In this document: positions 11,105-30,309 of the stretch, one piece after another
Position numbering within the stretch: position 1 is the stretch's first letter
How the letters are laid out: each line of letters opens with the position of its first letter
Assembly: GCF_900625025.1 (NCBI RefSeq)
Contig: NZ_LR130574.1
Location: 1 to 64,000 of the forward strand
DNA length: 64,000 nucleotides
Direction: 5' to 3'
Origin: Lachnoclostridium sp. Marseille-P6806
Lineage (GTDB): Bacteria > Bacillota > Clostridia > Lachnospirales > Lachnospiraceae
The notes under the pieces: model-generated
What the model was told of the DNA's origin: nothing
The model's input: the letters and a program-made list of their open reading frames with translations, nothing else
Database searches by the model: none
Made by a program: the position numbers and the translations under genes

Positions 11105-13600
11105 TCATATAAACAGATTCATATTGGAGTGGTCGTTATCATTCAGCATGGACGCGACCCCGCCGATTTCCACGCCCTCAATCAGCTCCTCCCGGGTGAT
11201 GCCCATCACATCCATCGACATCTGACAGGCGGTCAGCTTCACCCCTGCATCCCGCGCCTCCGCGATCAGCTCCTCCAGCGATGCGATGCCTTTCTTTTTC
11301 ATCACCGCGCGCATCATCCCGGAGCCCAGACCCGCAAAGTTCATTTTGGAAAGCGCGAGTTTCCCGGAGCCTCTCGGCATCATCATGCCGAAGAGCTTTC
11401 CGACAAGATCCTTCTGCACCGCTGTCTTTTCCGGTCTTCTCAGGATATTCAGTCCCCAGAACGTAAAGAACATGTTGACCTTATTGCCCATGGCGGCGCT
11501 TCCTGTCGCGATGATAAAGGCCGCGATGGCCTTGTCAAGATCTCCGTCAAAGACAATCATGGTCTTTTCTTTGCGCGTGTCCATCCCGGCTTCCCCGGCG
11601 CAAACCGCAGCTCCGCAGCCTTTTCGTATTTTGGCGGTAAATTTTCCCTTGTCCTCCTGCGTATCCAGAAGCGTATTTCCGGTATTGTCGCACCAGCTTT
11701 CGATATCCCTGACAAACCCGGGGTCCGTCGCTTCGACGCTCAGAATTTCTCCCTCCTGCATCGCAGCGACTCTTTTGGACACCCTCACAATCGGTCCCGG
11801 GCAGCTCAGTCCGCAGGCATCCAGATGAAAGGATTGCTGCTCTCCGCTCTTCAGCTTATCCTGATCTGTGGAAGCCGGGCGCCGTGCGTCTGCGCTCCCT
11901 CTTCCTAATCCGCCCGTTCCTCCGGCGTTTTTTCCATCTCCTGCTTTGTCGCTTCTTGTTCTGTCGCCAAAGGTCCGATATCCTCCCTGAAGATTTCTCA
12001 CGGTAAATCCGGCCTGCTTTAAGATTCTCTCGGTCAGATACCCCCGCAGACCGACCGCGCAGTATACGACATAGCTTGTCGATGTATCCAGCTCGCCAAG
12101 TCTGCTGCGCAGCGAGGTCAGGGGCATCCGCAGTGCGCCCTCTATGGTTCCCATGGCAAACTCCGCTTCTTCCCGCACATCGATCAGCGTAAAGGAATCC
12201 TTTCCGGCCTCATATTCTTCCCATGTGATCGGTTCCGTCAATCCCTCCAGTATATTCGACGCGACATATCCCGCCATATTCACCGGATCCTTGGCAGAGG
12301 AATACGGCGGCGCATACGCAAGCTCCAGCTTGGTCAGATCATACACCGTTCCCCGATAATGAATGCTGGAGGCGATGGTGTCGATCCTCTTGTCCACACC
12401 GTCATAGCCCGCGATCTGCGCGCCCAGAATCCTCCCGTCTGCCATATCAAAGAGCAGCTTTAAGGTCATGGGCGCCGCGCCCGGATAGTATCCGGCATGA
12501 GACATCGGATGAATGAGTGCGATTCCGTAATCGTTCCAAAGAACTTTCCCCGCCGCTTTCAGCGCTTTCTCATTGAGGCCGACCGAGGCCGCCGTCATGT
12601 CAAAGACCTTGGCCACGCTGGTTCCAAGCGTCCCGTCGTAGGTCTCGGCTTTCATTCCCAGAATATTCGCTGCCACAGCCCGGCCCTGCTTATTGGCAGG
12701 CCCCGCCAGAGGAACCATTCCCTTGCCGCCGGTGAGCGGGTTCACGATCTCAATCATATCCCCGATCGCGTAAATCGAGGGGTCGCTGGTCTTCATTCTC
12801 TCATCGACAATCACGCCGCCCCGCTGTCCGACGGCGAGGCCCGCTTCTTTCGCGAGCGCAGAATTCGGCCGCACGCCGACTGAGAGCAGAATCATATCGG
12901 TCTCCACCCTGCTGCCGTCGCTCATGACGGCGGTTTTTCCGCTTCCCTCCACGGCGGACAGCCCGGTATTCAGCAGAAGACGGATTCCCTTTGCTCTCAT
13001 ATGGTCTTCCAGCAGCTTTGCCATGTCCGGATCAAACGGCGGCATCACCTGCCCGGCGAACTCCGCCAGCGTCACCTCCATCCCTCTGTCATGCAGGTTC
13101 TCCGCCATTTCGATTCCAATAAAGCCTCCGCCGGTGACCAGCGCTTTCCCCGGCCGCTTCTCCTCTATAAAGCGATAGATCCTGTCCGTGTCCGGAATAT
13201 TCCAGAGCGTAAACACATTTTCCGCCTCTTTGCCCGGAATTTCCGGCACAAAAGGAGTCGAGCCGGTAGAAAGCAACAGCACATCATACGGCTCCGTGTA
13301 CTCTCTGCCGTTCTTTCTGTCCGCGATCTCGATGGTCTTTTCCTCCGGCCGAATCTTCGTCACCTCCGAGAAGTTTCTGATCTCAATGCCGTATTTGCCG
13401 GTGATCGACGGAATATCGGATACAAAAAGAGCATCCCTTGATTTGATCGTTCCTCCCAAATAATACGGAAGACCGCAGTTCGCAAAGGAAACAAATTCCC
13501 CTCTTTCCAGCAGGAGGATCTCCGCCGTTTCATCCAGCCGCCGGAGTCTGGCCGCCGCCGTGGCGCCTCCCGCAACACCGCCTACAATAATGATCTTCAT
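11105..13600 (-). CDS. CoA-disulfide-reductase-like flavoenzyme fused to rhodanese, TusA and DsrE domains
   Basis: 831 residues, four domains. Residues 1-450 are a pyridine nucleotide-disulfide oxidoreductase: FAD motif VGGVAGGATAAARLRRL, redox Cys42 in FANCGLPYYLGG, second dinucleotide motif VTGGGFIGIEMAENL, FAD motif YAIGDM. Residues 455-545 are a rhodanese with active Cys514 (VVYCAVGLRGY). Residues 590-660 are TusA/SirA-like with CGLSCPGP (Cys596, Cys600). Residues 678-831 are DsrE-like, with Cys792. Single-turnover sulfane sulfur handling is expected: persulfide or CoA-persulfide reduction with sulfur relay to the TusA Cys. A Gly/Ser/Lys-rich linker (545-590) separates the relay parts. 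It overlaps the upstream arsR by four bases (ATGA). Confidence 0.88.
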   Translation of the reverse strand: MKIIIVGGVAGGATAAARLRRLDETAEILLLERGEFVSFANCGLPYYLGGTIKSRDALFVSDIPSITGKYGIEIRNFSEVTKIRPEEKTIEIADRKNGREYTEPYDVLLLSTGSTPFVPEIPGKEAENVFTLWNIPDTDRIYRFIEEKRPGKALVTGGGFIGIEMAENLHDRGMEVTLAEFAGQVMPPFDPDMAKLLEDHMRAKGIRLLLNTGLSAVEGSGKTAVMSDGSRVETDMILLSVGVRPNSALAKEAGLAVGQRGGVIVDERMKTSDPSIYAIGDMIEIVNPLTGGKGMVPLAGPANKQGRAVAANILGMKAETYDGTLGTSVAKVFDMTAASVGLNEKALKAAGKVLWNDYGIALIHPMSHAGYYPGAAPMTLKLLFDMADGRILGAQIAGYDGVDKRIDTIASSIHYRGTVYDLTKLELAYAPPYSSAKDPVNMAGYVASNILEGLTEPITWEEYEAGKDSFTLIDVREEAEFAMGTIEGALRMPLTSLRSRLGELDTSTSYVVYCAVGLRGYLTERILKQAGFTVRNLQGGYRTFGDRTRSDKAGDGKNAGGTGGLGRGSADARRPASTDQDKLKSGEQQSFHLDACGLSCPGPIVRVSKRVAAMQEGEILSVEATDPGFVRDIESWCDNTGNTLLDTQEDKGKFTAKIRKGCGAAVCAGEAGMDTRKEKTMIVFDGDLDKAIAAFIIATGSAAMGNKVNMFFTFWGLNILRRPEKTAVQKDLVGKLFGMMMPRGSGKLALSKMNFAGLGSGMMRAVMKKKGIASLEELIAEARDAGVKLTACQMSMDVMGITREELIEGVEIGGVASMLNDNDHSNMNLFI

Positions 13601-17068: not shown

Positions 17069-18808
17069 TTAAACAGACTGAACCAGCTTCGGAATATCCC
17101 CCGGCAAATGGATGACCTCCGCCATAAAATATTGTGCTCTGGTCAGTAAATACCCTCCGTAAATAGCCTGAGAGCCCTCATCAAACATGAGAGAGCTGCT
17201 TGTTCCCAGCAAATATAAGACGGGATTTTCATATCCTTTCGGTCTTAACTGTTCATGGCGGTGCAGGCGCCCTATTCTCTGAAGCAGCAGGTCAATCGGC
17301 GCCAGTTCACTGACCATAACATCGAAATCGATATCCAGCGACTGCTCAATCACTTGCGTCCCGATAACGATATATCCTCTGGGACGCTGGTCTGTCATGA
17401 GCCCGGCTTCATCCGTCTTCTGTTTTCCCAGTAGTTTCCGTAATCTTTCCTCTTTCTTTACTCGTTCTGCTGCCAAAAAAGAGGAATGAAAAACCTCAAT
17501 CTTATCTTCGCCTGATAAAGCTGTCAGCTTTCTGCCGAGTTCCTGCGCTTTTTTTACGGTATTGACAACAATTCCGAGATTCGCCCCGTCTCCAAGCACT
17601 TTCTCCGCAAGCAGAAGCAATTCTTCATCCGTCAATTTCTCGATCCGAACTGTCTTCTCCGGTTTTTTTGCAAATCCCCTCTCCTGAGAAACGCTCGATC
17701 CATCCGTATATGTGATCAACGGATAGGCCTCTGAGATAACTTTTCGTCAGCTCCAGTCTCGAGGATTCAGACAACGTGGCGGATAAAAGGAGCACCGGCA
17801 CCCCATAGGCGGCCATCCACTGAATGGCCATCTGCAAATATTGGCTCATATAAGCATCGTATGCGTGTACCTCGTCAATAATGACCACCTTTTTGGCAAA
17901 GGCAAGATGGCGCAGTGCCAGATGTTTTTGTTTCAAGGCCGTCAATAAAAACTGATCGACGGTTCCTACAACGAAGTCGTCCATAATCGCCGTCTTTTTA
18001 CCCGAGAACCACTCGTTGACAGCAAAGGCGGAATCCTCACCGCTTTCATCCGCATCGCTTCTTTTCACCCTCGTCAGATTCACATACTCTTCATTCAGGT
18101 AAGCCTTTCCATGTAGCAGCCGAAGCTCCATTTTCTCATGGGTTTCCTCATGTACCCTTTGCAGCCAGTCTTTAATTCTCGGAAAAATTCCGTTGGACGT
18201 CGCCTGCGTGGGAAGACCCAAAAACACCCCGCTTCTTTTTGTCTGATACGCGAGTTGTTCCGCCGCCAGCAAAGCCGCCTCCGTTTTCCCGCAGCCCATC
18301 GGCGCCTCCAAAATAATGAGCCCCGGCTCTTTGCAGGAGGATATCGCCTCTATCAGCTTTCTCTGCACTTCCTTCGGCACAAAGGGCAGAAAACGGTCTT
18401 TGAATTTTTCCGTGATGTTTCCGATCGGACTCGCATTCCAGACTCCAGTCAGCCATTGTCAGCAGTCCGAAAAGCTGTACCTGTGCAGCCTGTGACCGTA
18501 CAGGAATCTCCGCCGGGTCTTCAAAACCGCACACCTCAAGAGCCCAGTCAACGATGGCATTCTGCGCTGACAGCCACTTCAATGCGATCGGCGACTCCGG
18601 ATCCTGTGATTGAAATAAATTGATCGCGTAAGAACCCAGCTGTGTCTCGCAGTTATTTTCATCCGCCGGTCTGCCATGATGTCCCCCGATAATGGAGGCA
18701 ATATCATCACTGTGATTCCCCTCATCCATACTCCTTAAAAAACGATCCGAATATCTGGCCATCTTTTTCTTCTTTCTTTGCCCAAAATGCCGGATGAACT
18801 CTTCCCAT
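17069..18808 (-). pseudogene. cas3: CRISPR-associated helicase-nuclease Cas3, degraded
   Basis: Pieces of a type I Cas3 in order. The true start is at 18808 (MGRVHPAFWAKKEEKDGQ behind GGGAGGAGG). The next stretch, in another frame, has the late HD-domain motif IIGGHHGRP, so the early HD residues are deleted. After a shift near 18420 comes the helicase: Walker A APMGCGKTEAAL, DEVH in VVIIDEVHAYDAYM, and LLSATL. After another shift near 17690 come motifs V-VI (GTQVIEQSLDIDFD, QRIGRLHRH). The C-terminal domain is missing. Wild-type Cas3 is about 800-900 residues. Subtype is uncertain, perhaps I-E. No cascade genes or repeats are nearby. Confidence 0.85.
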
Positions 18809-19523: not shown

Positions 19524-20489
19524 TTATTTTATGACATAATGACCAAATCGGTTAGACCCAACATGTTCAATCTTACCGTCATCCATAAGGCGCTTCAATG
19601 CTCTTTGTACTGTTCTCTGAGATGTTCCTACCATTTCAGCAAGTCCTGCTGCTGATTGATTACCATCTTCTTTCAGTAAATCAAGCAATTTCTCATCCAA
19701 TTTCTTTTCCTTGTTCATTGTGCCATTATAAGAAAGTTCCTTTAAAAGTTCCCTTATTAGTTCCAACATAAACTGAACAAATATCGTAGATTCACCCTCC
19801 GCATTTGAGGCATTCAGGGCCTTATAATAGTCCTCCTGCCTCTCATGAATTATTGTTTCAATCGGAATCCATAAAAAGAACTCCTGCCACTTAGCCAAAA
19901 TCAAAGTATGCCATAACCTACCGGTTCGTCCATTCCCATCCGCAAATGGATGTATGAATTCAAATTCATAATGAAATATACACCCCTTAACAAGTGGATG
20001 TAATTTTGATTTTTTAAGCCAATCGAATAACTGACCAACTAAATCAGGAACATAGTTTGCCGGAGTCCCTGCATGAATGAGTTGATTGCCGGCATATACG
20101 CCTACACCTTTACTTCTAAATATACCGGCTTCTTTCACAAGTCCTTCCATCATAATCTTATGCGCCTTCAGTAAATCCTTTACTGAATAAGGATTTAATC
20201 TGGTCATGGCTTCATAGGCTTCATAGGCATTCTTAGCTTCTCTGATATCCTGGGGCGATCCCAGAACACGCTTGCCATCAATTACGTCACTTACCTGCTC
20301 AACAGTCAACCTATTCTGCTCAATAGCCAAAGAAGAGTGAATAGACTTAATACGGTTGCCGCGCTTTAGCTTAGGGTTTTTAGACAACTGTTCCGATACT
20401 GTCATTGCACCGGTAAGCTCTGCTATTTCTATTACAAGATTCGTAATCTCGTCTGTCATTGTAAATGGCGGGATATATGTATCAGGCAC
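19524..20489 (-). CDS. Fic-domain AMP-transferase-like protein
   Basis: 321 residues. The Fic core has an intact catalytic motif HPFADGNGRTGRLW (residues 180-193), giving the His base and the phosphate-binding Gly/Arg. An N-terminal helix carries SSLAIEQN (52-59), at the place of the autoinhibitory [S/T]xxxE[G/N] motif, with Gln where Gly or Asn is usual. The C-terminus (about 255-321) is a winged helix (SAAGLAEMVGTSQRTVQRAL) typical of the long Fic family that may bind DNA. Such proteins AMPylate target proteins; the target is unknown. Upstream GGAGGTAAACC is the ribosome site. It appears intact. Confidence 0.88.
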   Translation of the reverse strand: MPDTYIPPFTMTDEITNLVIEIAELTGAMTVSEQLSKNPKLKRGNRIKSIHSSLAIEQNRLTVEQVSDVIDGKRVLGSPQDIREAKNAYEAYEAMTRLNPYSVKDLLKAHKIMMEGLVKEAGIFRSKGVGVYAGNQLIHAGTPANYVPDLVGQLFDWLKKSKLHPLVKGCIFHYEFEFIHPFADGNGRTGRLWHTLILAKWQEFFLWIPIETIIHERQEDYYKALNASNAEGESTIFVQFMLELIRELLKELSYNGTMNKEKKLDEKLLDLLKEDGNQSAAGLAEMVGTSQRTVQRALKRLMDDGKIEHVGSNRFGHYVIK

Positions 20490-21216: not shown

Positions 21217-22212
21217 CTATGCTTTCAATGCGTCAAGCACCTCACCAATATCACCATTTATGCAGATACTCCTGTCCTCGATCTCTCCTGGACAGTAAGC
21301 CTCGCCGTAATTGATGCAGCCATAGACAGCCTGCTTGTTTGCCAGGGTCATCTCCCAGAACGGATACTTTATGATGACAGGCGTGTTCGATCCCACACCC
21401 AGCTCCAGATAAAGCACATGAAGGTTTTCGTGCCTGCGAATGAAGTCGGAATACGCTGCCGAAGCTCTGTGCCAGCCCTCATCCTCCACGAAGGTGTCGT
21501 CTGCTCTCAGGTTCATCGTCACATCCGAACCGTCATCCGGGCATTTCGGAATCAGGTCTGTCGGGATCTCCATTAGGAGCTTTCCGTCCTCTGGAACTTG
21601 AAACATATCATTCTCGTCCTTTACAAACCCCTGTGCTTCCATTGCCTTCATTACCCACTCTTCATTATCGTAGGTTTTTCCATTTCTGCCGTCCACGGTC
21701 TGAAACAGGCCATAGTCCCCCTGCGTATAAAAAAACCTCTTCTTATCAAAACCAACCTTCTGCGGAACATGGTCAACGTCAGTACTAATCAGGAAATAAT
21801 CTTTGTCCTTGACAAGCTGAAGCAATTTATCATAAACACGCTTCGGCGGATTCATATACCGATTGATATAAATGTACCTCGCCCAATATGCCCAGCTGAT
21901 TTCCGGTGCAAGCTGCATCACCATGAATCCGCCGGAGTACATATCGGGGATGTGGTATTTTTCTACGAAGTCTCCAAACCACTTCTGCAGCCGTTCTCCT
22001 GTGTATACGAATCCCGCTGAAGTTGATAATCCAGCTCCCGCACCAAGCACGATGGCATCGGCCGTCCGGATTTCTTCCTTAAGCCTGGCAATCTGTTCTT
22101 CCCTTGTCCCTTTTCCGTAGGACATATGTCTGCTGAAGGTTCTCACTGCGCTCATCCCCTTTTGTATGGTTTCCAAATATCCATTTGGCATCTCTTTATA
22201 CAAGTCTTTCAT
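21217..22212 (-). CDS. Class M sirtuin (SirTM)-like protein
   Basis: 331 residues. NAD-binding Rossmann motif GAGAGLSTSAG (57-67); the characteristic SirTM C-terminal part LRADDTFVEDEGW and LELGVGSNTPVIIKYPFW. SirTM enzymes ADP-ribosylate lipoylated carrier proteins in an oxidative-stress module with a macrodomain. The sequence at the catalytic Asn position reads STDVDH (143-148), where sirtuins usually have TQN(I/V)D, and the zinc-ribbon region shows only one Cys (C224; TVDGRNG and PDDGSD elsewhere). Activity is therefore uncertain. I prefer the ATG at 22212 over 22242; either way it overlaps or nearly abuts the macrodomain gene, so they are coupled. Confidence 0.8.
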   Translation of the reverse strand: MKDLYKEMPNGYLETIQKGMSAVRTFSRHMSYGKGTREEQIARLKEEIRTADAIVLGAGAGLSTSAGFVYTGERLQKWFGDFVEKYHIPDMYSGGFMVMQLAPEISWAYWARYIYINRYMNPPKRVYDKLLQLVKDKDYFLISTDVDHVPQKVGFDKKRFFYTQGDYGLFQTVDGRNGKTYDNEEWVMKAMEAQGFVKDENDMFQVPEDGKLLMEIPTDLIPKCPDDGSDVTMNLRADDTFVEDEGWHRASAAYSDFIRRHENLHVLYLELGVGSNTPVIIKYPFWEMTLANKQAVYGCINYGEAYCPGEIEDRSICINGDIGEVLDALKA

Positions 22213-23005
22213 AGTGTTCTTTATCCTCATTTTTAAAAACATTGAAGATTACCCTTTCCATAGATGTGGGATGTTCCGTCAGCCATTTCTGCACGGTACT
22301 GACCGCAATCTCAGCAGCCCGCCTGTTCGGGAAACGAAATACACCCGTAGATATGCAGCAGAACGCCACGCTTTTCAGATCATTTTCCAGACACATATCC
22401 AGCGTGTTCCGATAGCAATCGGCAAGGTCTTTTTCCAATGCGGGGGTCAGTCTGTCATAAACAATCGGTCCCACGATGTGAATGACCTTCTTTGCCGGAA
22501 GATTGTAGGCATCCGTCAGCATCGGAACCGCTGTCGGCTGCTCATAGTCCCTGCCATACTTGATACGCAGCTGATTCATCTGCCGATTGCATTCCTGTCT
22601 TAACTGGACTCCGGCAAATGTATGAATGCAGTTATCGATGCATGTATGCATCGGCACGAAACAGCCGAGCATCTGCGAATTGGCGGCATTTACGATGGCA
22701 TCCACAGCAAGCCTTGTGATGTCACCCTGCCAGATGGACATTCCGTCACGGATCACAGGAATATCAGGAAGCTCCACGATACCGTTATTTTCAATACGCT
22801 CTTTCAGATACTCGTCCTGAACTTCCAATACATCCTCCGACATGGCTTTTGGCATACGGATATTCATCAGCGAACGAAGAATACGCCTTTTTCCGTCTGT
22901 GTCGTCCGGTGTCTGCAAGTCTTTATATTCATCGTAATCGGCTTTGAATTCTTCCACCAGATAATCAAGCCGCTGTTCCTGTGTCATATTGTTTGCAATG
23001 CTCAT
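22196..23005 (-). CDS. Zinc-type macrodomain (ADP-ribosyl hydrolase)
   Basis: 269 residues. A helical N-terminal extension (1-90) precedes a macrodomain: GDITRLAVDAIVNAANSQML with the ribose-binding Asp and Asn, then GCFVPMHTCIDNCIHTFAG with the Cys/His pattern of zinc-dependent macrodomains that occur with SirTM, then IHIVGPIVYDR and FCCISTGVFRFPNRRAA. Members remove ADP-ribose from lipoylated carrier proteins modified by SirTM. It starts five bases after the DUF1848 stop and overlaps the sirtuin. All key macrodomain motifs look intact, unlike those of the sirtuin. No lipoate ligase or GcvH-L gene is in the window. Confidence 0.9.
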   Translation of the reverse strand: MSIANNMTQEQRLDYLVEEFKADYDEYKDLQTPDDTDGKRRILRSLMNIRMPKAMSEDVLEVQDEYLKERIENNGIVELPDIPVIRDGMSIWQGDITRLAVDAIVNAANSQMLGCFVPMHTCIDNCIHTFAGVQLRQECNRQMNQLRIKYGRDYEQPTAVPMLTDAYNLPAKKVIHIVGPIVYDRLTPALEKDLADCYRNTLDMCLENDLKSVAFCCISTGVFRFPNRRAAEIAVSTVQKWLTEHPTSMERVIFNVFKNEDKEHYERLV

Positions 23006-23009
23006 AAGA

Positions 23010-23951
23010 TCACACGATCCCTTCCAGTGAAAGTTGTACCTGTTCTTCTATCCACGATTTCTGCGGCACATCATGTACTTTGTCGTTCTCCCTGTAGTTT
23101 CCGATAAGAAAAGGCGACTTGGGATTGTGTCGGTTGCTCTGCGCCATGACGATTTCCGGCTCAGCGTTCGCATAGCAATATCGGCACAAGTGCCTGCAGG
23201 TATTGTATGCCCCAATGTCGCAGACAAGATAACAGGCGCATTCCGCCCTCACGCCTTTTCTTTTTGGCGCGGTGAGCCTCTTTCCGATTGCCTTTTCATA
23301 ATCGCTTAAAAGCATACAGCCGCCGCATTCCGCTCCGTATGCCGCGAGCTCATCACCCTCCGCGCATGGTTTCAAAGTCATTCCATGTGAAAATGCGATT
23401 CGTATCATTTCCTTTCCCAGCCTCAGCCGCTGTTCCCTTGTAATTTCTCTTGCCTCCGGGAAGTTGTGTCTGACCTTCGGATACAGATCCAGAAAGCTTA
23501 TCACAGCGGTTTTCGTGCAGCCATCAAGTGCGGAGGCGATCTGTTCAAAGGCGTGAAGATGATATTCTTCCGTATATCTTTTTGAGATAAAGATCGGATC
23601 GTAACGCCAGCCGATGGAGTTTATGCCAACTATACCGGACAGACGTTTAAAATCCTTTATCAGCTGGTGCTTATCCGGCACGTTCGGTTCAATATCCCGC
23701 CCGTAAGGTGTGATGGTGACGAACCAGTATTGTCCGTAATCCACCAGAAGATCCATATACGAGAACATCGGAGCAGGGCTTTTCGTGCAGAATCCGATGC
23801 CGTCAACAACAGAAGGATCAAGGCGGTAACGGCTGACCTGATTCGGATTATAGGGATTGCGAACGCAGACAAATCCTTCCTTCAGCCTGTTTGCGAACCA
23901 TTCGGCGTAGAAGGCGGGGATGTCGGTTCTTTGCCCCGTATTGATGATCAT
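23010..23951 (-). CDS. DUF1848 iron-sulfur protein
   Basis: 313 residues matching the DUF1848 family, which I recognise from SRRTDIPAF-like N-termini (here GQRTDIPAFYAEWFANRL) and the C-terminal Cys cluster CACYLVCDIGAYNTCRHLCR then YCYANA. Earlier cysteines lie in ECGGCML. The C-terminal CxxxCxxC-like spacing has led to suggestions of a radical-SAM-like enzyme, but function is unknown. AGGAGG sits nine bases before the ATG at 23951. It is five bases upstream of the macrodomain gene, so it belongs to the sirtuin-macrodomain operon, a context seen in other Firmicutes. Confidence 0.85.
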   Translation of the reverse strand: MIINTGQRTDIPAFYAEWFANRLKEGFVCVRNPYNPNQVSRYRLDPSVVDGIGFCTKSPAPMFSYMDLLVDYGQYWFVTITPYGRDIEPNVPDKHQLIKDFKRLSGIVGINSIGWRYDPIFISKRYTEEYHLHAFEQIASALDGCTKTAVISFLDLYPKVRHNFPEAREITREQRLRLGKEMIRIAFSHGMTLKPCAEGDELAAYGAECGGCMLLSDYEKAIGKRLTAPKRKGVRAECACYLVCDIGAYNTCRHLCRYCYANAEPEIVMAQSNRHNPKSPFLIGNYRENDKVHDVPQKSWIEEQVQLSLEGIV

Positions 23952-23983: not shown

Positions 23984-24283
23984 TTATTCTTTCGGTATCT
24001 CATTCCAAAAGCAGGTCTCTTCCAGAGGTTTTCTCTTCGTGGACAGATTCTCATTTGGTTTATAATCATCAGCTGGATACCCTATGTAAAGCATACAGAC
24101 CGGCTGCCAGTTCTCAGGAATCTTCAGAAGTTCCCTTGCCTTGTCTTCATCAAAATAGCTGATCCATGCTGTTCCAAGCCCCAGACTTGTCGCTTCCATC
24201 ATCATATGACCACCGATGGATCTTCTTCCTGCGGTCTTTCTGAACGCCTCTGGCATATTCGATCTCAGGATAGCCAAAACCAA
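23984..24283 (-). pseudogene. Nitroreductase, C-terminal fragment
   Basis: About 85 meaningful residues: SIGGHMMMEATSLGLGTAWI, then LKIPENWQPVCMLYIGYPAD, the FMN-binding end of a nitroreductase. The N-terminal half is missing. Its 5' side is fused, in a different frame, to the tail of the ferredoxin-nitroreductase upstream, as if two paralogous genes recombined. DUF1848 starts 33 bases after its stop. Confidence 0.7.
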
Positions 24284-24876
24284 CGATCAATCCTGTGTAA
24301 TGGTCTTTTGGAATATTCAATATCGCCCTTGCTTCCGGTGCAAGTTCATTCAGTACCTCCGAAGGATAACTCATGATCGTCGTGCCAAGTCCGTAAGCGT
24401 TGCACAAAAGTTCAAAATATGCCGTAGCGACAATACAGTTCGCCTTGGAGTCCTCCGCCCATTTGCCGACACACTTCTCATGTGCGATAAACAGGTGCGG
24501 TGCCGAGCAGAACAGTAGGTCTCCCTTACGCACAGTTTTTTCTGACTGCTTCATCTTGGAATAGAAGAAATCACTGAAGCTGTGGGTATAGATATGCTTT
24601 TTCGCATCCGCATCCATCACGGGATAGGCCTCATTCGAGATTTCCCGGACTCTCGACTTATCATCAATCACAGTGTATTCATACTGCGATGCAGCGGTCG
24701 CATCTCCAGCAGCCGCGCCAGCCGAACCGTTCAAACGGCTTCATCTCCGGATGTCCGTCCCGCATGGAAAGAACCATCCCTGTACAGACATTGACACAGT
24801 TTCCGCAGCCGATGCGTTTATTCTGATCAACCCTGAAATGGGTTCTTTCTTCCATGCCCATAGTTTTACGCCTCAC
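24150..24876 (-). pseudogene. Ferredoxin-nitroreductase, frameshifted
   Basis: The first frame (24876 to about 24690) encodes an N-terminal 2[4Fe-4S]-like part: RIGCGNCVNVC then RGCWRCDRCIAV. It stops where the second cluster should close. The second frame (to about 24195) encodes the nitroreductase body from YEYTVIDDKSRVREISNEAY through LNIPKDHYTGLIVGFGYPEI, but the FMN-binding N-terminus is missing, so there is both a frameshift and a deletion. Its start overlaps the dehydrogenase stop by four bases. A complete protein would use ferredoxin-type electrons for flavin reductions in the ACGX operon. It is probably inactive. Confidence 0.75.
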
Positions 24877-25832
24877 ATCTTCACAACGATTTTTCCGTTC
24901 ACTTTGCCGGTGCCCTGCGCTATTACCGCATCCTTGATATGATCAAAGTCGAATATTTCTCCGTATACCGGCACCAGCTTCTTCTCGTTAAAGAATCGGA
25001 ACATATCGTCCACCACCTGTCCTGACGGGTAATTGGAGAAGAATCCAGTCAGATACACACCGTTCGGGATATCCTTGATGGGATCGAATCCATTTAAAAC
25101 ATAAACGCCTCCGAGAATACCCGTATTGCAGACAAGCGCACCCTTTTCGACCGCCGTCATAGTATCTTTCAGGTTGCGAGGGCCAACCAGGTCAAGCGCC
25201 TTCGTCACACCCTTTACTTTCCCTGTGAGCTTTCCATCATCGAAAACCTGTTCATCCGCATCCGCTATCAAACTGAACTTGTTTTCTTTGTGCGTTGTGG
25301 CGATCGCATGACAACCGAGAGCCTTTGCGATCTGAATTGCGGCATATCCAAGCGCACAGGTCGCTCCTCTTATGAGCAGCGTGTCATCCGGCTTTAGTTG
25401 CAAGCATTCAAACAGGGAGCCCCATGCTGTAAAATAAGTTTCCGGCACTGCTCCGAGTGCTTCCCACGGCAGGTCGCTTTCGATAGCAAAAACATGGTGC
25501 AGTGGCAGCATCGCATACTCCGCATAACTTCCGTTAAAGGAACGTCCCATACCGCCCATCATAGCGATGACCTTCTGACCGATTGTAAGACCGCCGTCGG
25601 AGGCATCTGCAATCTCACCGACACATTCAATCCCCGGAATGACCGGTTTCTGAATGTAATCCGCATTGATCTCGTTCAGCCTTAGAATCTGCTCGGAATG
25701 GTTCATCCCGAATGCCCTGACCTTTACCAGCACCCACCCCGGCTTTACCTGGGGAACGGGGAATTTCGTCAATGTAACTTCTTCTGCATTTGTAACGCCG
25801 TTCAGAACGACAGCCTTCATTGTCTTTTCCAT
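24873..25832 (-). CDS. MDR-family zinc-independent dehydrogenase/quinone-oxidoreductase
   Basis: 319 residues. GroES-like N-terminal domain (about 1-125, FGMNHSEQILRLNEI and PVIPGIECVGEI) and NAD(P)-binding Rossmann domain (LLIRGATCALGYAAIQIAKA). The zinc ligands of alcohol dehydrogenases are absent, so a quinone-oxidoreductase or enoyl-reductase-like reaction is likely. The ATG at 25832 follows GGAGG by nine bases; the longer frame lacks one. It lies 17 bases after the PNPOx-ferredoxin gene and overlaps the ferredoxin-nitroreductase start, making it a member of the ACGX operon. A role in the peptide's redox chemistry is inference. Confidence 0.82.
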   Translation of the reverse strand: MEKTMKAVVLNGVTNAEEVTLTKFPVPQVKPGWVLVKVRAFGMNHSEQILRLNEINADYIQKPVIPGIECVGEIADASDGGLTIGQKVIAMMGGMGRSFNGSYAEYAMLPLHHVFAIESDLPWEALGAVPETYFTAWGSLFECLQLKPDDTLLIRGATCALGYAAIQIAKALGCHAIATTHKENKFSLIADADEQVFDDGKLTGKVKGVTKALDLVGPRNLKDTMTAVEKGALVCNTGILGGVYVLNGFDPIKDIPNGVYLTGFFSNYPSGQVVDDMFRFFNEKKLVPVYGEIFDFDHIKDAVIAQGTGKVNGKIVVKM

Positions 25833-25849
25833 GTCATTTATCCTCCGCT

Positions 25850-26464
25850 TTAGAGTCTTTGTAGCGCCTGCACCGGGCATCTCTCAAAACAATTTCCGCA
25901 TTGTAGACAGTGATTCTGGTCAATTACGAACGGGCTTCCCTCTGTTATCACGGATTGAGGACAGACCGTCTGGCATGTTCCGCAGCCGATACAATCTTCA
26001 GATATCACATAGCCCTTCGGCTTCAACACTGCGTTCCCAACTGTGAAATACTCCCGCGTGATAGGTCTGGTGGAAAGACAGAAATACTCCATCGTGTAAT
26101 CCTTGATCACGAACATCGTATCGATATTCTTGCTTTCACCCGGATAAACATTCTCAAGGTAGGGCTGTTCCTGATACAGAATATCCCGCCACTTGATTTG
26201 TTCATCCTTCGGCACTTCCACCGCTTTTCCTGATACACGGATTGTTTCCTTGTATCTCGTATAACCCGAAATCTGCACCCTGCCGTCAGCATAAAGCTGT
26301 CTGGCAAAGGATTTACCTCTTGCCGTCAGAAAATAAATATCTGTTCCTTCGTAGTGAATGGCACTGATATTCCTGACCTGTGGTGCGCCGTCTTCATCAA
26401 CTGTAGCAAAGTTCAAAACTCCTACATATCCCAATTTCTGAATGCAGGTTAAAGCATCCATCAC
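25850..26464 (-). CDS. PNPOx-like flavin protein fused to a 2[4Fe-4S] ferredoxin
   Basis: 204 residues. Residues 1-140 form a split beta-barrel of the pyridoxamine-phosphate-oxidase type (YVGVLNFATVDEDGAPQVRN; FLTARGKSFARQL). The C-terminus holds two clusters, CIGCGTCQTVCP and CLQCGNCFERCP. The fusion is suited to electron transfer between flavin and iron-sulfur partners. It overlaps the radical SAM gene by four bases and precedes the dehydrogenase, so it may reduce the maturase or use its product. Such a role is inferred from position only. Confidence 0.85.
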   Translation of the reverse strand: MMDALTCIQKLGYVGVLNFATVDEDGAPQVRNISAIHYEGTDIYFLTARGKSFARQLYADGRVQISGYTRYKETIRVSGKAVEVPKDEQIKWRDILYQEQPYLENVYPGESKNIDTMFVIKDYTMEYFCLSTRPITREYFTVGNAVLKPKGYVISEDCIGCGTCQTVCPQSVITEGSPFVIDQNHCLQCGNCFERCPVQALQRL

Positions 26465-27522
26465 TCGCCCTCCTTTGCAAACAGTTCCCCATTCTCATCC
26501 GCCCAACACTGCGGATCATTCGCATAGAAATCACCATAAGTTCCTCTTGATACCGCAGGACACCCCCGACACCATGCAAGCAGCTTACATCTGGAACACT
26601 TGCTGAACTTTTCGTAATCCCGATAACTCTCCATGCCAGTCACCCAGACATCCGCAAGTCTGTCTTCAAATATATTGCCGATCTTGCTCTCCGCCACCCT
26701 GCGGCAGGCAAAAATATCTCCTGTAGGAAGAATCGTGATATGGCAATTACCGCAGTTGCAGCCGCCGTATATCATACCTTTTTCCGCATGATCGGGAATC
26801 TTAAATTCTCCGGCCTCATACTCATACAGTGTCCAGAGATGGTCTTTTTTATTGAAATAGGTTTCGCAGCCTTCCTTTACGTATTCCTTAAACTTCTTAT
26901 CACAGATAGCGAGAAGTTCCCTATATTCCTGCGCCGTCATGGACGCATCCAGATCACCGCCGCTCGGTACATACCTTGAAAATGCGAATACATTTGCCCC
27001 TGCTCCCACTACCGCATCTATGATCCCCGGAACCTCCATTCGATTCGTCTTGGATACCGTGGTCATAATGACGCTCCGTATACCGGCTTTATTGATGCAG
27101 GCAATCTTCTCCAATGTGCAATCGAATGATCCGGGCTTCCTGAACCAGTCATGGGTTTCACGGAGCCCGTCAATGGAAAGCTGGTATTTTTCACAGCCGA
27201 ACCATTTAAGCTCCCGGCAGACCTGATCATTCAGATGGAATGGATTTCCCAGGATCGTAAACTTTATGTCATGCTCGTGCATCCGTTCCAGCAGTCTCCA
27301 GAAATCCGGATGAAGGATCGGATCGCCTCCAGTGATATAAAAATACGGAGTGCGGCCATACATTTCACAGAAATCAAGGCAATTATAGAATGTAGACTCC
27401 ATCTGCTCCCATGTCATGGACTTAAGGCAGGTATGGTCTCCGGCAGAGAAGATGTAGCAATGCTTACACCTCTGATCACACTCATCCGTTATATGCCATT
27501 GAAATGAAAAATATGGTTTCAT
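26461..27522 (-). CDS. Radical SAM/SPASM maturase, ACGX system
   Basis: 353 residues. The radical SAM cluster motif CDQRCKHCY is at residues 15-23; YFYITGGDPILHPDF carries the GGDP SAM-binding turn. The C-terminus is a SPASM domain with auxiliary cluster cysteines (CNCGNCHITILPTGDIFAC, then CSRCKLLAWCRGCP). Together with the adjacent ACGX-repeat precursor this matches the radical SAM/SPASM protein of the ACGX peptide system described in TIGRFAM-type classifications. It presumably crosslinks or otherwise modifies Cys or neighbouring residues of the repeats; the product has not been defined to my knowledge. Ribosome site AGGAGTGACGGATC before ATG. Confidence 0.88.
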   Translation of the reverse strand: MKPYFSFQWHITDECDQRCKHCYIFSAGDHTCLKSMTWEQMESTFYNCLDFCEMYGRTPYFYITGGDPILHPDFWRLLERMHEHDIKFTILGNPFHLNDQVCRELKWFGCEKYQLSIDGLRETHDWFRKPGSFDCTLEKIACINKAGIRSVIMTTVSKTNRMEVPGIIDAVVGAGANVFAFSRYVPSGGDLDASMTAQEYRELLAICDKKFKEYVKEGCETYFNKKDHLWTLYEYEAGEFKIPDHAEKGMIYGGCNCGNCHITILPTGDIFACRRVAESKIGNIFEDRLADVWVTGMESYRDYEKFSKCSRCKLLAWCRGCPAVSRGTYGDFYANDPQCWADENGELFAKEGE

Positions 27523-27654
27523 GATCCGTCACTCCTATACTTCTTATATTGAACAGCTTTTAGCTGATAATCTTCAAAAACAATCCCCCGGCCATTGATG
27601 ACCGGAGAATCATTGTTTGGCCAAACAAGATAAAGCGAATAACCGCCTTTGTTC

Positions 27655-27894
27655 TTATTTGTCACCTGCTCCGCATGCACTTCCGCAAGCTGCCGGTTTT
27701 TCTTCCGGCTTGTCACCGGCACCACAGGCAGAGCCGCAGGCTGCGGGCTTCTCTTCCGGCTTGTCACCAGCACCACATGCCGAGCCACAAGCTGCAGGCT
27801 TCTCGGAAGCCCCGCAAGCAGCCGGCTTGTCAGATGCACCACAAGCACTTCCTGCTGTGTTCTCGTTCCATCCGGCGATATTTGATAATGCCAT
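27655..27894 (-). CDS. ACGX-repeat RiPP precursor peptide
   Basis: 79 residues: a short leader MALSNIAGWNENTAGS followed by eight ACGA/ACGS units. The last three pairs form a near-perfect 17-residue repeat (AACGSACGAGDKPEEKP). Eight cysteines, no aromatic residues after the leader. A perfect AAGGAGGT ribosome site precedes ATG. It lies 132 bases upstream of the radical SAM/SPASM gene and is first in the operon. This is the substrate type of the ACGX system. The repeats are also nearly identical at DNA level, so copy number may vary between strains. Confidence 0.88.
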   Translation of the reverse strand: MALSNIAGWNENTAGSACGASDKPAACGASEKPAACGSACGAGDKPEEKPAACGSACGAGDKPEEKPAACGSACGAGDK

Positions 27895-27955
27895 TTCCTT
27901 GTACCTCCTTCATGAGAATCGTTTCAGTCGGCACTACTGCCGCCCTGTGATTATC

Positions 27956-27983
27956 ATTATATTTACCCATGAAAGCCCCGCAA
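27956..27983 (-). promoter_or_regulatory. Likely promoter of the ACGX operon
   Basis: Minus strand TATAAT (27961-27956) with TTGCGG (27983-27978) 16 bases upstream, about 60 bases before the precursor. Further upstream GTTATAAAAA occurs twice in tandem (about 27995-28025), possibly a regulator site. Confidence 0.5.
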
Positions 27984-28092
27984 GTACGCACTTTTTTATA
28001 ACCCAAGTTACCTTTTTATAACTATTGGATGGATACGGGGATACCGCACAATCGGTGAAATGTAAATTTTTTTTCGAACAGTTCTGTCTCTA

Positions 28093-28121
28093 TTGACAAA
28101 AGGCGCTTGCAACGCTATAAT
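28093..28121 (+). promoter_or_regulatory. Consensus promoter of the HxlR regulator gene
   Basis: TTGACA (28093-28098) and TATAAT (28116-28121), both perfect, spacer 17. Confidence 0.85.
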
Positions 28122-28126
28122 ATGAA

Positions 28127-28152
28127 TGCAACATTCAAATTTGAATGTTGCA
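28127..28152. promoter_or_regulatory. HxlR operator: 26-bp perfect palindrome
   Basis: TGCAACATTCAAA is followed immediately by its exact reverse complement. It overlaps the expected transcription start of the regulator gene and lies 27 bases before its start codon, so autorepression by the HxlR protein is the simplest reading. Confidence 0.75.
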
Positions 28153-28179
28153 CTCTATTTCCAACGGGAGGTGAATGAA

Positions 28180-28512
28180 ATGAAGAAAAAAGAAGATCTT
28201 CCCGATTGTCCTGTCGCGACAACGGTCAGTTTAATCGGGAGTAAGTGGAAGCTGCTGATACTTCGTAATCTGCTGGCCCGCCCCTGGAGGTTCAATGAAC
28301 TTCAAAAAGACCTCGAAGGCATCAGCCAGAAAGTGCTGACGGATAGTCTGCGTTCACTGGAAGCAGATGGAATCATCACAAGAACGGTCTTTCCGGAAGT
28401 CCCGCCTCGTGTCGAGTATGCGCTCTCTGACCTCGGCGAACAGATGCGGCCGATACTAACGGCGATGGAAAACTTCGGAAATGATTATAAAACACTTGCA
28501 GAACAACAATAA
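28180..28512 (+). CDS. HxlR-family winged-helix regulator
   Basis: 110 residues. CPVATTVSLIGSKWKLLILR is the HxlR signature with its N-terminal Cys (Cys10), which in relatives such as YodB or HypR senses quinones, aldehydes or disulfide stress. The recognition helix lies in GISQKVLTDSLRSLEADGII. GGGAGGTGAATGAA precedes ATG. It is divergent from the ACGX operon, 285 bases between starts, with its own consensus promoter and a palindrome. I infer it controls itself and possibly the ACGX operon in response to electrophile or redox stress. Confidence 0.88.
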   Translation: MKKKEDLPDCPVATTVSLIGSKWKLLILRNLLARPWRFNELQKDLEGISQKVLTDSLRSLEADGIITRTVFPEVPPRVEYALSDLGEQMRPILTAMENFGNDYKTLAEQQ

Positions 28513-28569: not shown

Positions 28570-30309
28570 TCAGATAGATAATTCTGACCTGTGAACCGGC
28601 CTTCTTCCTGCATTGATCTGATCTGCTTCGGCCTGTTTCTGTTTGAGACGACCAAGCACAGACTCCCGTGTTTCTGTCCGGATCTCTTTCAGATTCTGTT
28701 CCCGCTTTATCGGATCATGAAGAGCCGAGATCACTTTCTTTGTGACAAGACCTACAGCATTTCTTATACGACGGATAGAAGCATCCAGTGCCTGCAGCAC
28801 AATACTCCGATGTTTTTCCTGCCCCTTGCTTTGCGGAGAGGTAACCCATTCTTTCAGAAATTCGATTTCTGCGATATTCGCTTCTGTCGTTTCTTCTCTG
28901 ACCGTCCTTGTCACCTGACTGACAGCTTTATCATAAGCGACTTCGGACACATCGGCGATCAGGTCTTCCAGATCATCCACCTTCATTGTCAGTTCTTCCA
29001 GCTGCTGGCTTTTCTGTTTGAGCGCAGAATTCGCACTTGCGATTTCGACCGTCTTATTCCTCAGTTCGATATTGGCAGTGAAAACATCATAGGCCTTTTG
29101 ATTAAACTCTTTTTTGACCTCTGAGAGCTTTTGTTCCTGTTCAGCCAGCCTCTCTTTCTGCCGCATCAGGATATAATCCTGTTTTTCCAGATACTCCCGT
29201 CCGCCGTACTGCGGTTCCTCCTGCATCTCCAATCCGTGTGATTTTGCGATTTCGATCAGCATCGTCCTGCAGATGGAATCAAACATCACCTTGCGGTTGT
29301 TGGTCTTGCTGTTTTCCTGATCCGGATGCGGCAGTGGAATGCCGAGTGCCTCCAGCGTCTTTTCCTGCTGCGGGGCAATTTCGCCATATTCATTCTCACA
29401 ATCGAAGACATGGCGCTCATGGATGTGCGGCGTAAGATCCAGTCCAAGCGCCTCCACTAACTCTGTTGCTGTGCCGCACCAGCAAGGATGATCTTTTTTG
29501 ATCATCCCTGCAACTGCTTCTATCACCGGATCGGGCTTCGGCTTGAATGTCTCCATCTCTGCCTTGTCCAGATCCCAGATGAGCGTCTCTTCATTTCGGT
29601 TCAGGTACAGCGTCTGATCCGCTTGATCCCTTCCGGAAATATTCAGGATCGCCGCGCTGCTGACACGCTTCTCCTTGTGGAGAAGGAACGCCCCGTCCGC
29701 AGCTCCCATCAGGCCGTTCGTTCCGGAAATCATTTCAAACTTATCATCCGCCTGCTGCTTCCGTGTGTGATGCACCAGGAGCAGGCAGACGCCAGTCACG
29801 TCGGTAAACTGTTTCAGCGTTGTGATCACCTCATAGTCATTCGCATAGCTGCATTTTTCGTCGCCAAGCTCGCATATCTTCTGAAGCGTATCGATGATGA
29901 TCAGCGCGGTGTCCGGGTGCGCTTTATAGAAGTTTTTGAGTTGATCCATCAGGTTCCCTTTCAGGGATTCTGCCTTTGTGGCAAGGTGAAGATTCTCCGT
30001 GCAGTCTGTCCCGAACATCCGGTACAAGCATTCCTATAGCCTTCGCTGATCATCCTCCAGTGCAAGGTAAAGAACCGTCCCTTTCCTCACCGGGAATCCC
30101 CATAAGGTGTTGCCCGTTGCGACATGGTAGGCAAGCTCCATCATCAGGAAACTCTTGCCCAGCTTTGGAGCACCGACGAACAGGTAAGTACCGGGATAGA
30201 GCAGGCCCTCAATCACCGGCGGTCTGTTCTGAAATACCCGGTCATACAGTTCGCTCATGGTCACCGTATTCAGGTGCTTTGACTGCGCATAGATGTGCAG
30301 CTGCTCCAA
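28570..30309 (-). pseudogene. RepA-like ATPase fused to a MobV-type relaxase tail, with amber stop
   Basis: One frame interrupted by a single TAG at 30036-30034. Before it: LLYPGTYLFVGAPKLGKSFL, the Walker A of a RecA/DnaB-like plasmid RepA ATPase. After it: ALIIIDTLQKICELGDEKCS (Walker B), LLLVHHTRKQ, ISGTNGLMGAADGAFLL, to ATELVEALGLDL. At about residue 290 the sequence switches to HIHERHVFDCENEYGE and EYGGREYLEKQDYILMRQKE, followed by a long coiled coil, which is the middle and C-terminus of MobV/Pre mobilization proteins. The catalytic His motifs of MobV are absent. A deletion joined the two genes in frame; the amber codon replaces what is probably a Gln. Not expected to be functional. Confidence 0.75.

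Follow-up and report, generated by a model that had tools for sequence, protein, structure and literature searches.

An ACGX-repeat peptide cassette with a divergent HxlR regulator, redox enzymes and a frequent SirTM/Zn-Macro pair in Lachnoclostridium sp. Marseille-P6806 and other gut bacteria

Class-M sirtuins (SirTM), which are ADP-ribosyltransferases, and zinc-dependent macrodomains (Zn-Macro), which hydrolyse protein-ADP-ribose, are known from an extended operon that also encodes the lipoylated carrier GcvH-L, the ligase LplA2 and the oxidoreductases OYE and LLM (PMC4518038, PMC11490716). There SirTM acts on the lipoyl-bearing carrier beside flavin oxidoreductases and has been tied to oxidative stress, and the targets of other SirTM/Zn-Macro systems are stated as unknown; radical SAM enzymes, nitroreductases and HxlR regulators are not mentioned in the available portions of either paper. 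The subject here is an ACGX-repeat peptide cassette of Lachnoclostridium sp. Marseille-P6806, found in the 64,000 nucleotides from position 1 of contig NZ_LR130574.1 (the window). As in the extended operon, as far as the available text describes it, SirTM and Zn-Macro lie next to each other, beside oxidoreductases of flavin type and a small protein that bears sulfur; the cassette differs in having no noted GcvH-L, in its ACGX peptide and radical SAM enzyme, and in a divergent HxlR gene. By analogy, the same logic may be built from other parts, with the Cys-repeat peptide corresponding to the lipoyl carrier, the radical SAM enzyme to the lipoate ligase, and nitroreductase, PNPOx-ferredoxin (PNPOx-Fd) and MDR proteins to OYE and LLM. 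The cassette is tentatively read, with confidence a little short of even, as an intracellular peptide system that HxlR switches under redox or electrophile stress, with flavin/NAD(P)H enzymes to service it and ADP-ribosylation as a frequent gate.

Three other described systems bear on this locus. The window peptide and its enzyme are members of the NCBIfam families TIGR04341 and TIGR04340, names that cover the pair alone and leave HxlR, the promoter element, the redox genes and SirTM/Zn-Macro outside. This pair is named, yet undescribed in the open-licence papers searched: none was found that names the ACGX repeat, TIGR04340 or TIGR04341, that has SirTM and a radical SAM enzyme together, or that has HxlR, a radical SAM enzyme and a precursor peptide together. 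By NCBIfam score the nearest other radical SAM/SPASM family is SbtM of the thio(seleno)oxazole system of ribosomally synthesized and post-translationally modified peptides (RiPPs), and a cysteine substrate is shared. According to the available part of PMC11002830, SbtM takes away four hydrogens and turns Cys into thiooxazole. The window maturase, however, scores 160.7 bits against SbtM, far under the equivalog cut-off of 350, and its neighbours differ. The regulator resembles YodB/HxlR (DUF24) proteins of Bacillus, as portrayed in the available parts of PMC8063818 and PMC7835342, in its winged helix and reactive N-terminal Cys. It differs from YodB in having one Cys instead of two and a DNA element other than TACT-N7-AGTA. 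It also lacks the Cys11/Lys13 pair of the formaldehyde sensor HxlR, whose Cys-Lys bridge is described in PMC7835342: the window protein reads Cys-Pro-Val, with Val in place of Lys two residues past the Cys.

The cassette occupies the following positions of the window.

28180 to 28512, plus strand: HxlR regulator of 110 aa, with a single Cys10 in DLPDCPVATT (PF01638, 104 bits)
27655 to 27894, minus strand: ACGX-repeat precursor peptide of 79 aa, with a MALSN...W leader followed by ACGX units in Pro/Lys/Glu-rich linkers (TIGR04341)
27632 to 27649, minus strand: terminator-like hairpin between the peptide and maturase genes
26461 to 27522, minus strand: radical SAM/SPASM maturase with both its CxxxCxxC and its SPASM cysteines (TIGR04340; Radical_SAM and SPASM; alignment)
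25850 to 26464, minus strand: PNPOx-Fd, a fusion of a PNPOx-like domain with a 2x[4Fe-4S] ferredoxin whose eight cysteines do not vary among 19 aligned sequences (PF01243, Fer4)
24873 to 25880, minus strand: MDR-type oxidoreductase, quinone oxidoreductase-like (ADH_N/ADH_zinc_N of Pfam)
23984 to 24876, minus strand: nitroreductase pseudogene, made of ferredoxin-nitroreductase pieces and, at its 3' end, a piece of a second nitroreductase (PF00881 pieces, three open reading frames)
23010 to 23951, minus strand: DUF1848 protein, an occasional cassette member (PF08902, 323.2 bits)
22196 to 23005, minus strand: Zn-Macro, protein-ADP-ribose hydrolase (NF003163; PDB 8rsi)
21217 to 22242, minus strand: SirTM, class-M sirtuin, ADP-ribosyltransferase (PDB 5a3a; residue check)

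An earlier note, made from the sequence of the window, had described a 79-residue peptide with eight ACGA or ACGS units, followed on one strand by the radical SAM/SPASM enzyme, the PNPOx-ferredoxin fusion, the MDR dehydrogenase and nitroreductase remnants. Both counts are right, and all of these genes are in place on that strand. The run had been ended too early, however, leaving out DUF1848, Zn-Macro and SirTM, which continue it on the same strand beyond the nitroreductase down to 21217, with 32 nt between nitroreductase and DUF1848, 4 nt between DUF1848 and Zn-Macro, and a 47-nt overlap of Zn-Macro and SirTM. The largest gap anywhere from peptide to sirtuin is that of 132 nt between the peptide and maturase genes, where the hairpin is possibly an attenuator or a partial terminator.

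With 92.1 bits against TIGR04341 (cut-off 28) and 580.8 bits against TIGR04340 (cut-off 400), the adjacent peptide and maturase both exceed the curated cut-offs and thus belong to the ACGX system; the CxxxCxxC and SPASM cysteines identify the second as a radical SAM/SPASM enzyme. The peptide pattern is above chance, because four or more ACG were reached by just 4 of 20,000 composition-preserving shuffles and because dozens of loci share the arrangement. For comparison, the best 80 of 566 confirmed loci were taken from a scan in which each species was represented by one genome; this set is tilted toward the window's sequence, and many of its loci are from rabbit-gut metagenome-assembled genomes (MAGs) and hence not independent. 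A rule based on open reading frames detected the precursor in 76 of 81 loci, the window included; of the five others, L088 gives a tblastn match and four have less than 320 bp of upstream sequence. Among the 76 peptide sequences, 74 start with MAL, and 472 of 480 cysteines stand in an [AST]CG context. Each peptide has 3 to 13 cysteines, at spacings that are predominantly 4, 13 and 9 residues, and about half of the CG units are followed by Asp/Glu-Lys linkers. Leader and repeats are similar across the sequences, with no obvious cleavage boundary, and hydrophobic residues are scarce past residue 15.

The neighbours of the pair recur as well. With the window protein as query, and in loci with 1.3 kb or more of upstream sequence, a divergent HxlR gene was found within 3.5 kb in 66 of 68 loci (absent in L069 and L100). 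Each of the 72 HxlR proteins collected, that of the window among them, keeps the N-terminal Cys-[Pro/Ala]-Val; with this Cys and its HxlR domain, the window protein groups with the redox regulators of the HxlR/DUF24 type. Downstream genes were counted on the same strand within 5 kb, in the 51 loci whose sequence extends 5 kb or more in that direction. At least one of the nitroreductase, PNPOx-Fd and MDR genes is present in 50 of these, and the exception, L095, has PNPOx-Fd and MDR on the HxlR side instead. Individually, nitroreductase occurs in 31, PNPOx-Fd in 33, MDR in 18 and DUF1848 in 4, and no one redox enzyme is obligatory in the cassette. Zn-Macro follows in 30 loci and SirTM in 32; both are there in 30, SirTM alone in 2 and neither in 19. 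A comparison of ACGX loci had been proposed in the earlier note, with absence of the redox genes and HxlR as the outcome that would speak against it. Both recur, and its partner set stands in this respect, while the frequent ADP-ribosylation pair (30/51) had been missed. Its suggestion of a redox or electrophile response is likewise supported, for the cassette, by conservation of the HxlR Cys and of the oxidoreductases, which makes such a response plausible.

Altogether 23 neighbour clusters occur in at least four loci; eight are cassette genes, and ten of the other fifteen were compared with Pfam. The ten comprise a response regulator, a histidine kinase, an ABC protein, a MATE protein, a LysR protein and five without a match. 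Neither an exporter or peptidase at a fixed place nor a metal family, sensor or transporter is found among these ten of the fifteen non-cassette clusters; the ABC ATPase (7 loci) and MATE (6 loci) are scattered on both sides. The scarcity of hydrophobic residues past residue 15 and the lack of a fixed exporter or peptidase argue for an intracellular repeat protein and not a secreted product.

Maturase carriers number 5 of 61 genomes of the genus (that of the window included), 7 of 99 relatives, 37 of 299 family genomes (36 over cut-off) and 9 of 398 genomes of a phylum sample, and the cassette is present in the named isolates Butyrivibrio sp. INlla14, Butyrivibrio sp. XPD2002 and Ruminococcus bromii YE282. 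This patchy distribution, with carrier MAGs labelled as other phyla, suggests transfer, bearing in mind that short MAG contigs may be misbinned and that the tree is no proof. A genomic island at guaA was also considered; no second copy of the guaA 3' end occurs in the window, and the attachment-site claim was dropped.

Control sequences lie between the peptide and HxlR genes.

28093 to 28121, plus strand: HxlR promoter TTGACA-17-TATAAT, from a consensus scan
28124 to 28155, no strand: two copies of GAATG-N3-CATTC, at 28124-28136 and 28143-28155 (one mismatch), about the +1 of HxlR
27981 to 28022, minus strand: putative operator at the peptide promoter, a tandem element made up of GTTATAAAAAGGTAAC (28007-28022) and GTTATAAAAAAGTGCGTACTTG (27981-28002) that lies upstream of the -35 and reaches it
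27956 to 27983, minus strand: peptide promoter TTGCGG-16-TATAAT, recognized by eye and missed by the consensus scan

The HxlR start is very probably 28180, giving 110 aa, because GGGAGG precedes it, while the ATG at 28126 is no further downstream than the expected transcript start. The divergent HxlR gene, its consensus promoter and a perfect 26-bp palindrome, all reported earlier, are present; the palindrome (28127-28152) lies inside the two GAATG-N3-CATTC sites, which are 19 bp apart. It is not the most conserved control element, a place taken by the tandem repeat at the peptide promoter. Counts were made in 67 intergenic regions, leaving out 4 of 71 that are longer than 520 bp. At most one mismatch being allowed, 26 of the 67 contain GAATG-N3-CATTC (expectation 0.008 per region), whereas the 16-base core of the tandem element, with up to two mismatches, occurs in 62 of 67 and has no match in flanking control sequence. 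The palindrome is thus unsupported as the main operator. Across loci the tandem element reads GTTAYAAAAAGGT... then GTTAYAAAAAAGTGCGTACTTG, at the peptide promoter, and -10-like (TATAAT-like) columns stand behind it in the 65 regions that could be aligned. With up to three mismatches, the full 22-base pattern has a single match in the 3.1-Mb genome, at 27981-28002.

The ADP-ribosylation pair of the window belongs to recognized families. Zn-Macro scores 308.8 bits against NF003163 (cut-off 272) and has 8rsi as its best PDB match (E 4.3e-69); its GCFVPMHTC aligns with 8rsi, so that family score and zinc-loop Cys-His-Cys agree on a zinc-dependent macrodomain. We take these three residues to be the zinc ligands. 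The best PDB match of SirTM is 5a3a (E 5.9e-44), and a Gln for the catalytic His, GVGx[NT]TP (GVGSNTP in the window) and the linked Zn-Macro place it in class M. Gln stands at the catalytic-His position in 111 of 112 aligned SirTM rows, the remaining row, L277, reading X. The window protein keeps this residue (Gln137), and its Zn cysteines are partly missing. It has Asp for the catalytic Asn118, which is Asn in 110 of 112 rows; the second exception, L273, sits on a very long branch, departs also at Arg192 and is probably misread. According to the available part of PMC4518038, mutation of Asn118 leads to a strong loss of activity.

SirTM and the maturase occur together more often than independence predicts in both samples, with kinship ignored in the tests and with phylum-sample SirTM calls that extend to E 1e-25 and include some partial matches. 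Among 398 phylum-sample genomes, 9 have a maturase over cut-off, 19 SirTM and 7 both (Fisher 6e-9); among 299 family genomes, the figures are 37, 144 and 32 (Fisher 3e-7). SirTM lies directly downstream on the same strand in 20 of the 37 maturase genomes and near but divergent in two, G520 and G531. One set of 20 regions had been picked for a nearby SirTM (19 downstream, one divergent) and is no independent test.

The SirTM tree (FastTree, local supports only) holds 112 rows, 60 beside ACGX and 52 not, after removal of rows that contain two or more internal stops or fall short of 200 aa. It has 18 label changes against 37.3 when labels are shuffled, and at least 7 are forced by well-supported branches, so that the ACGX-SirTM link appears to have arisen or been lost several times and a single origin is unsupported. 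The window's own linkage looks secondary, since its SirTM sits among 27 rows of which 18 are without ACGX. A divergent SirTM branch, the supported clade of L110, L121, L271, L277 and L279, is also found in ACGX cassettes.

Gene content, conservation and co-occurrence of the cassette, its recurrent DNA elements and its catalytic motifs are observed; the mechanism proposed for it, from what HxlR binds and senses to the peptide chemistry, the carrier role and the ADP-ribosylation target, is inferred and runs as follows. HxlR, through its conserved N-terminal cysteine, would repress its own gene and control the peptide operon via the tandem element, and thiol stress would lead to expression of the operon. 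The radical SAM/SPASM enzyme would oxidatively modify the ACGX-repeat cysteines, and the peptide would remain cytosolic as a multi-cysteine sulfur redox carrier with which the flavin, ferredoxin and NAD(P)H enzymes (nitroreductase, PNPOx-Fd and MDR) may exchange electrons. SirTM and Zn-Macro, in more than half of the loci, would add and remove ADP-ribose on a target within this pathway, for which the carrier peptide is the most plausible candidate, as with lipoyl-GcvH-L elsewhere. A more specific version, in which the ACGX peptide represents a novel type of sulfur carrier that the neighbouring SirTM/Zn-Macro takes as substrate, a RiPP switched by reversible ADP-ribosylation and a gut-anaerobe counterpart of lipoyl-GcvH-L, is rather unlikely. 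If it were true, the Asp/Glu-Lys linkers would be candidate acceptor sites.

Several points weigh against the proposed mechanism. Binding of HxlR to the tandem element or the palindrome sites is a prediction from sequence. Neither Zn-Macro nor SirTM is adjacent in 19 of 51 loci, SirTM stands alone in 2 others, and 5 of 37 maturase genomes in the family sample have no SirTM, so that ADP-ribosylation is not obligatory for the cassette. The peptides show no clear difference in composition with SirTM presence (Asp per Cys, p=0.013, in one of seven tests). Other SirTM targets must exist, because 112 of 144 SirTM genomes of the family sample are without ACGX, and 16 of the 20 examined among them are without full-length GcvH (over 100 bits; family cut-off 22.2 bits), which 4 of 20 have. 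The window copy itself is partly decayed and may be partly inactive, given the Asp at Asn118 and the broken nitroreductase, which makes the window a good pointer to the system and a poor choice for enzymology.

GcvH-L beside SirTM, as in the extended operon, was not found in 25 ACGX carriers. Full-length GcvH is present in one of them (135 bits, on another contig), and 13 others have short matches only, at 20-25 bits, six at or over the cut-off. This scarcity is general and not special to ACGX carriers, since GcvH is also rare in SirTM genomes without ACGX.

Peptide/maturase and SirTM/Zn-Macro may instead be independent outputs of one HxlR thiol-stress switch, with another protein as the target of SirTM, a serious possibility though well below an even chance. 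The SirTM genomes without ACGX and the cassettes with neither pair gene adjacent, both counted above, fit such a co-regulon. So do the 55 SirTM loci without ACGX, where Zn-Macro is adjacent in 43, HxlR in 11, PNPOx-Fd in 9, Rrf2 in 9 and an NAD(P)H-binding protein in 7 (the last three identified from one example each checked by Pfam). Against it stand the repeated physical association implied by the forced label changes, the tight and often overlapping gene order, and the 20 of 37 adjacent SirTM genes of the family sample, where chance would give roughly 0.2 (a rough figure, from 12 kb of 3 Mb per genome). PNPOx-Fd proteins about 40-47% identical stand beside SirTM/Zn-Macro with no ACGX pair in L220-L224, L156, L160 and L150, possibly a second type of SirTM operon.

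Radical SAM enzymes require an electron donor, and the redox genes could serve the Fe-S clusters of the maturase and not the peptide. This is unlikely, although PNPOx-Fd carries two [4Fe-4S] motifs and is downstream of the maturase in its 33 loci. The MDR protein, which scores 132.8 bits against TIGR02824, under that model's cut-off, and has no Fe-S domain among its Pfam matches, is the sole such partner in L047, L049, L059, L082 and L107, and PNPOx-Fd also stands beside SirTM without the maturase in the 9 of 55 loci already mentioned.

The earlier note had also allowed for a metal-active peptide, in which case the maturase would make thiooxazole-like ligands from cysteines and the product would chelate metal as peptides made by MNIO enzymes do. 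This is quite unlikely. SbtM, whose product is a thiooxazole, is the best NCBIfam match of the maturase after its own family, and the available text of published work has copper bound by MNIO thiooxazole peptides and bufferins; but that score is far too low for SbtM membership, no metal sensor or transporter is found among the ten Pfam-compared clusters, the pair is accompanied by an HxlR regulator and redox enzymes, and the metal-active part of the suggestion is thus unsupported. A secreted antimicrobial or signalling RiPP is very improbable, since the usual sactipeptide/ranthipeptide layout of precursor and radical SAM/SPASM enzyme is here accompanied by no exporter or peptidase at a fixed place among the compared clusters and by no obvious cleavage boundary between the similar leaders and repeats.

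The nitroreductase pieces lie in three frames (24679-24876, 24150-24734 and 23984-24283). The first two belong to one ferredoxin-nitroreductase gene and the last to a second nitroreductase gene. L067 and L072 have these as two separate genes, which fits a deletion between neighbours. The DUF1848 protein (23010-23951) also matches the PADLOC model RTasDUF1848 of DRT defence systems, with 113 bits. Elsewhere in the window, a Fic-family protein (19524-20489; best PADLOC match SoFic, 150.8 bits) lies 727 nt past SirTM, and an AAA_25-type ATPase followed by a further open reading frame, maybe its other part (28570-30309), between HxlR and guaA, is perhaps a mobile-element remnant. Overlapping reading frames at 17069-18762 match Cas3_HD, DEAD and Cas3-like_C_2 and represent a broken or misread Cas3. 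Another sulfur-redox gene (11105-13600) encodes an 831-aa fusion of pyridine nucleotide-disulphide oxidoreductase, rhodanese, TusA and DsrE-like parts.

The cassette, patchily present in various gut bacteria, offers a candidate answer to the question of what SirTM/Zn-Macro pairs act on: a small sulfur-rich protein that shares their operon, in carriers of which 24 of 25 examined are without full-length GcvH. The ACGX peptide family for its part gains a concrete setting, with redox partners, a defined element at the peptide promoter and HxlR in divergent orientation. Both questions, that of the target and that of the setting, can be tested with purified proteins and in the named isolates.

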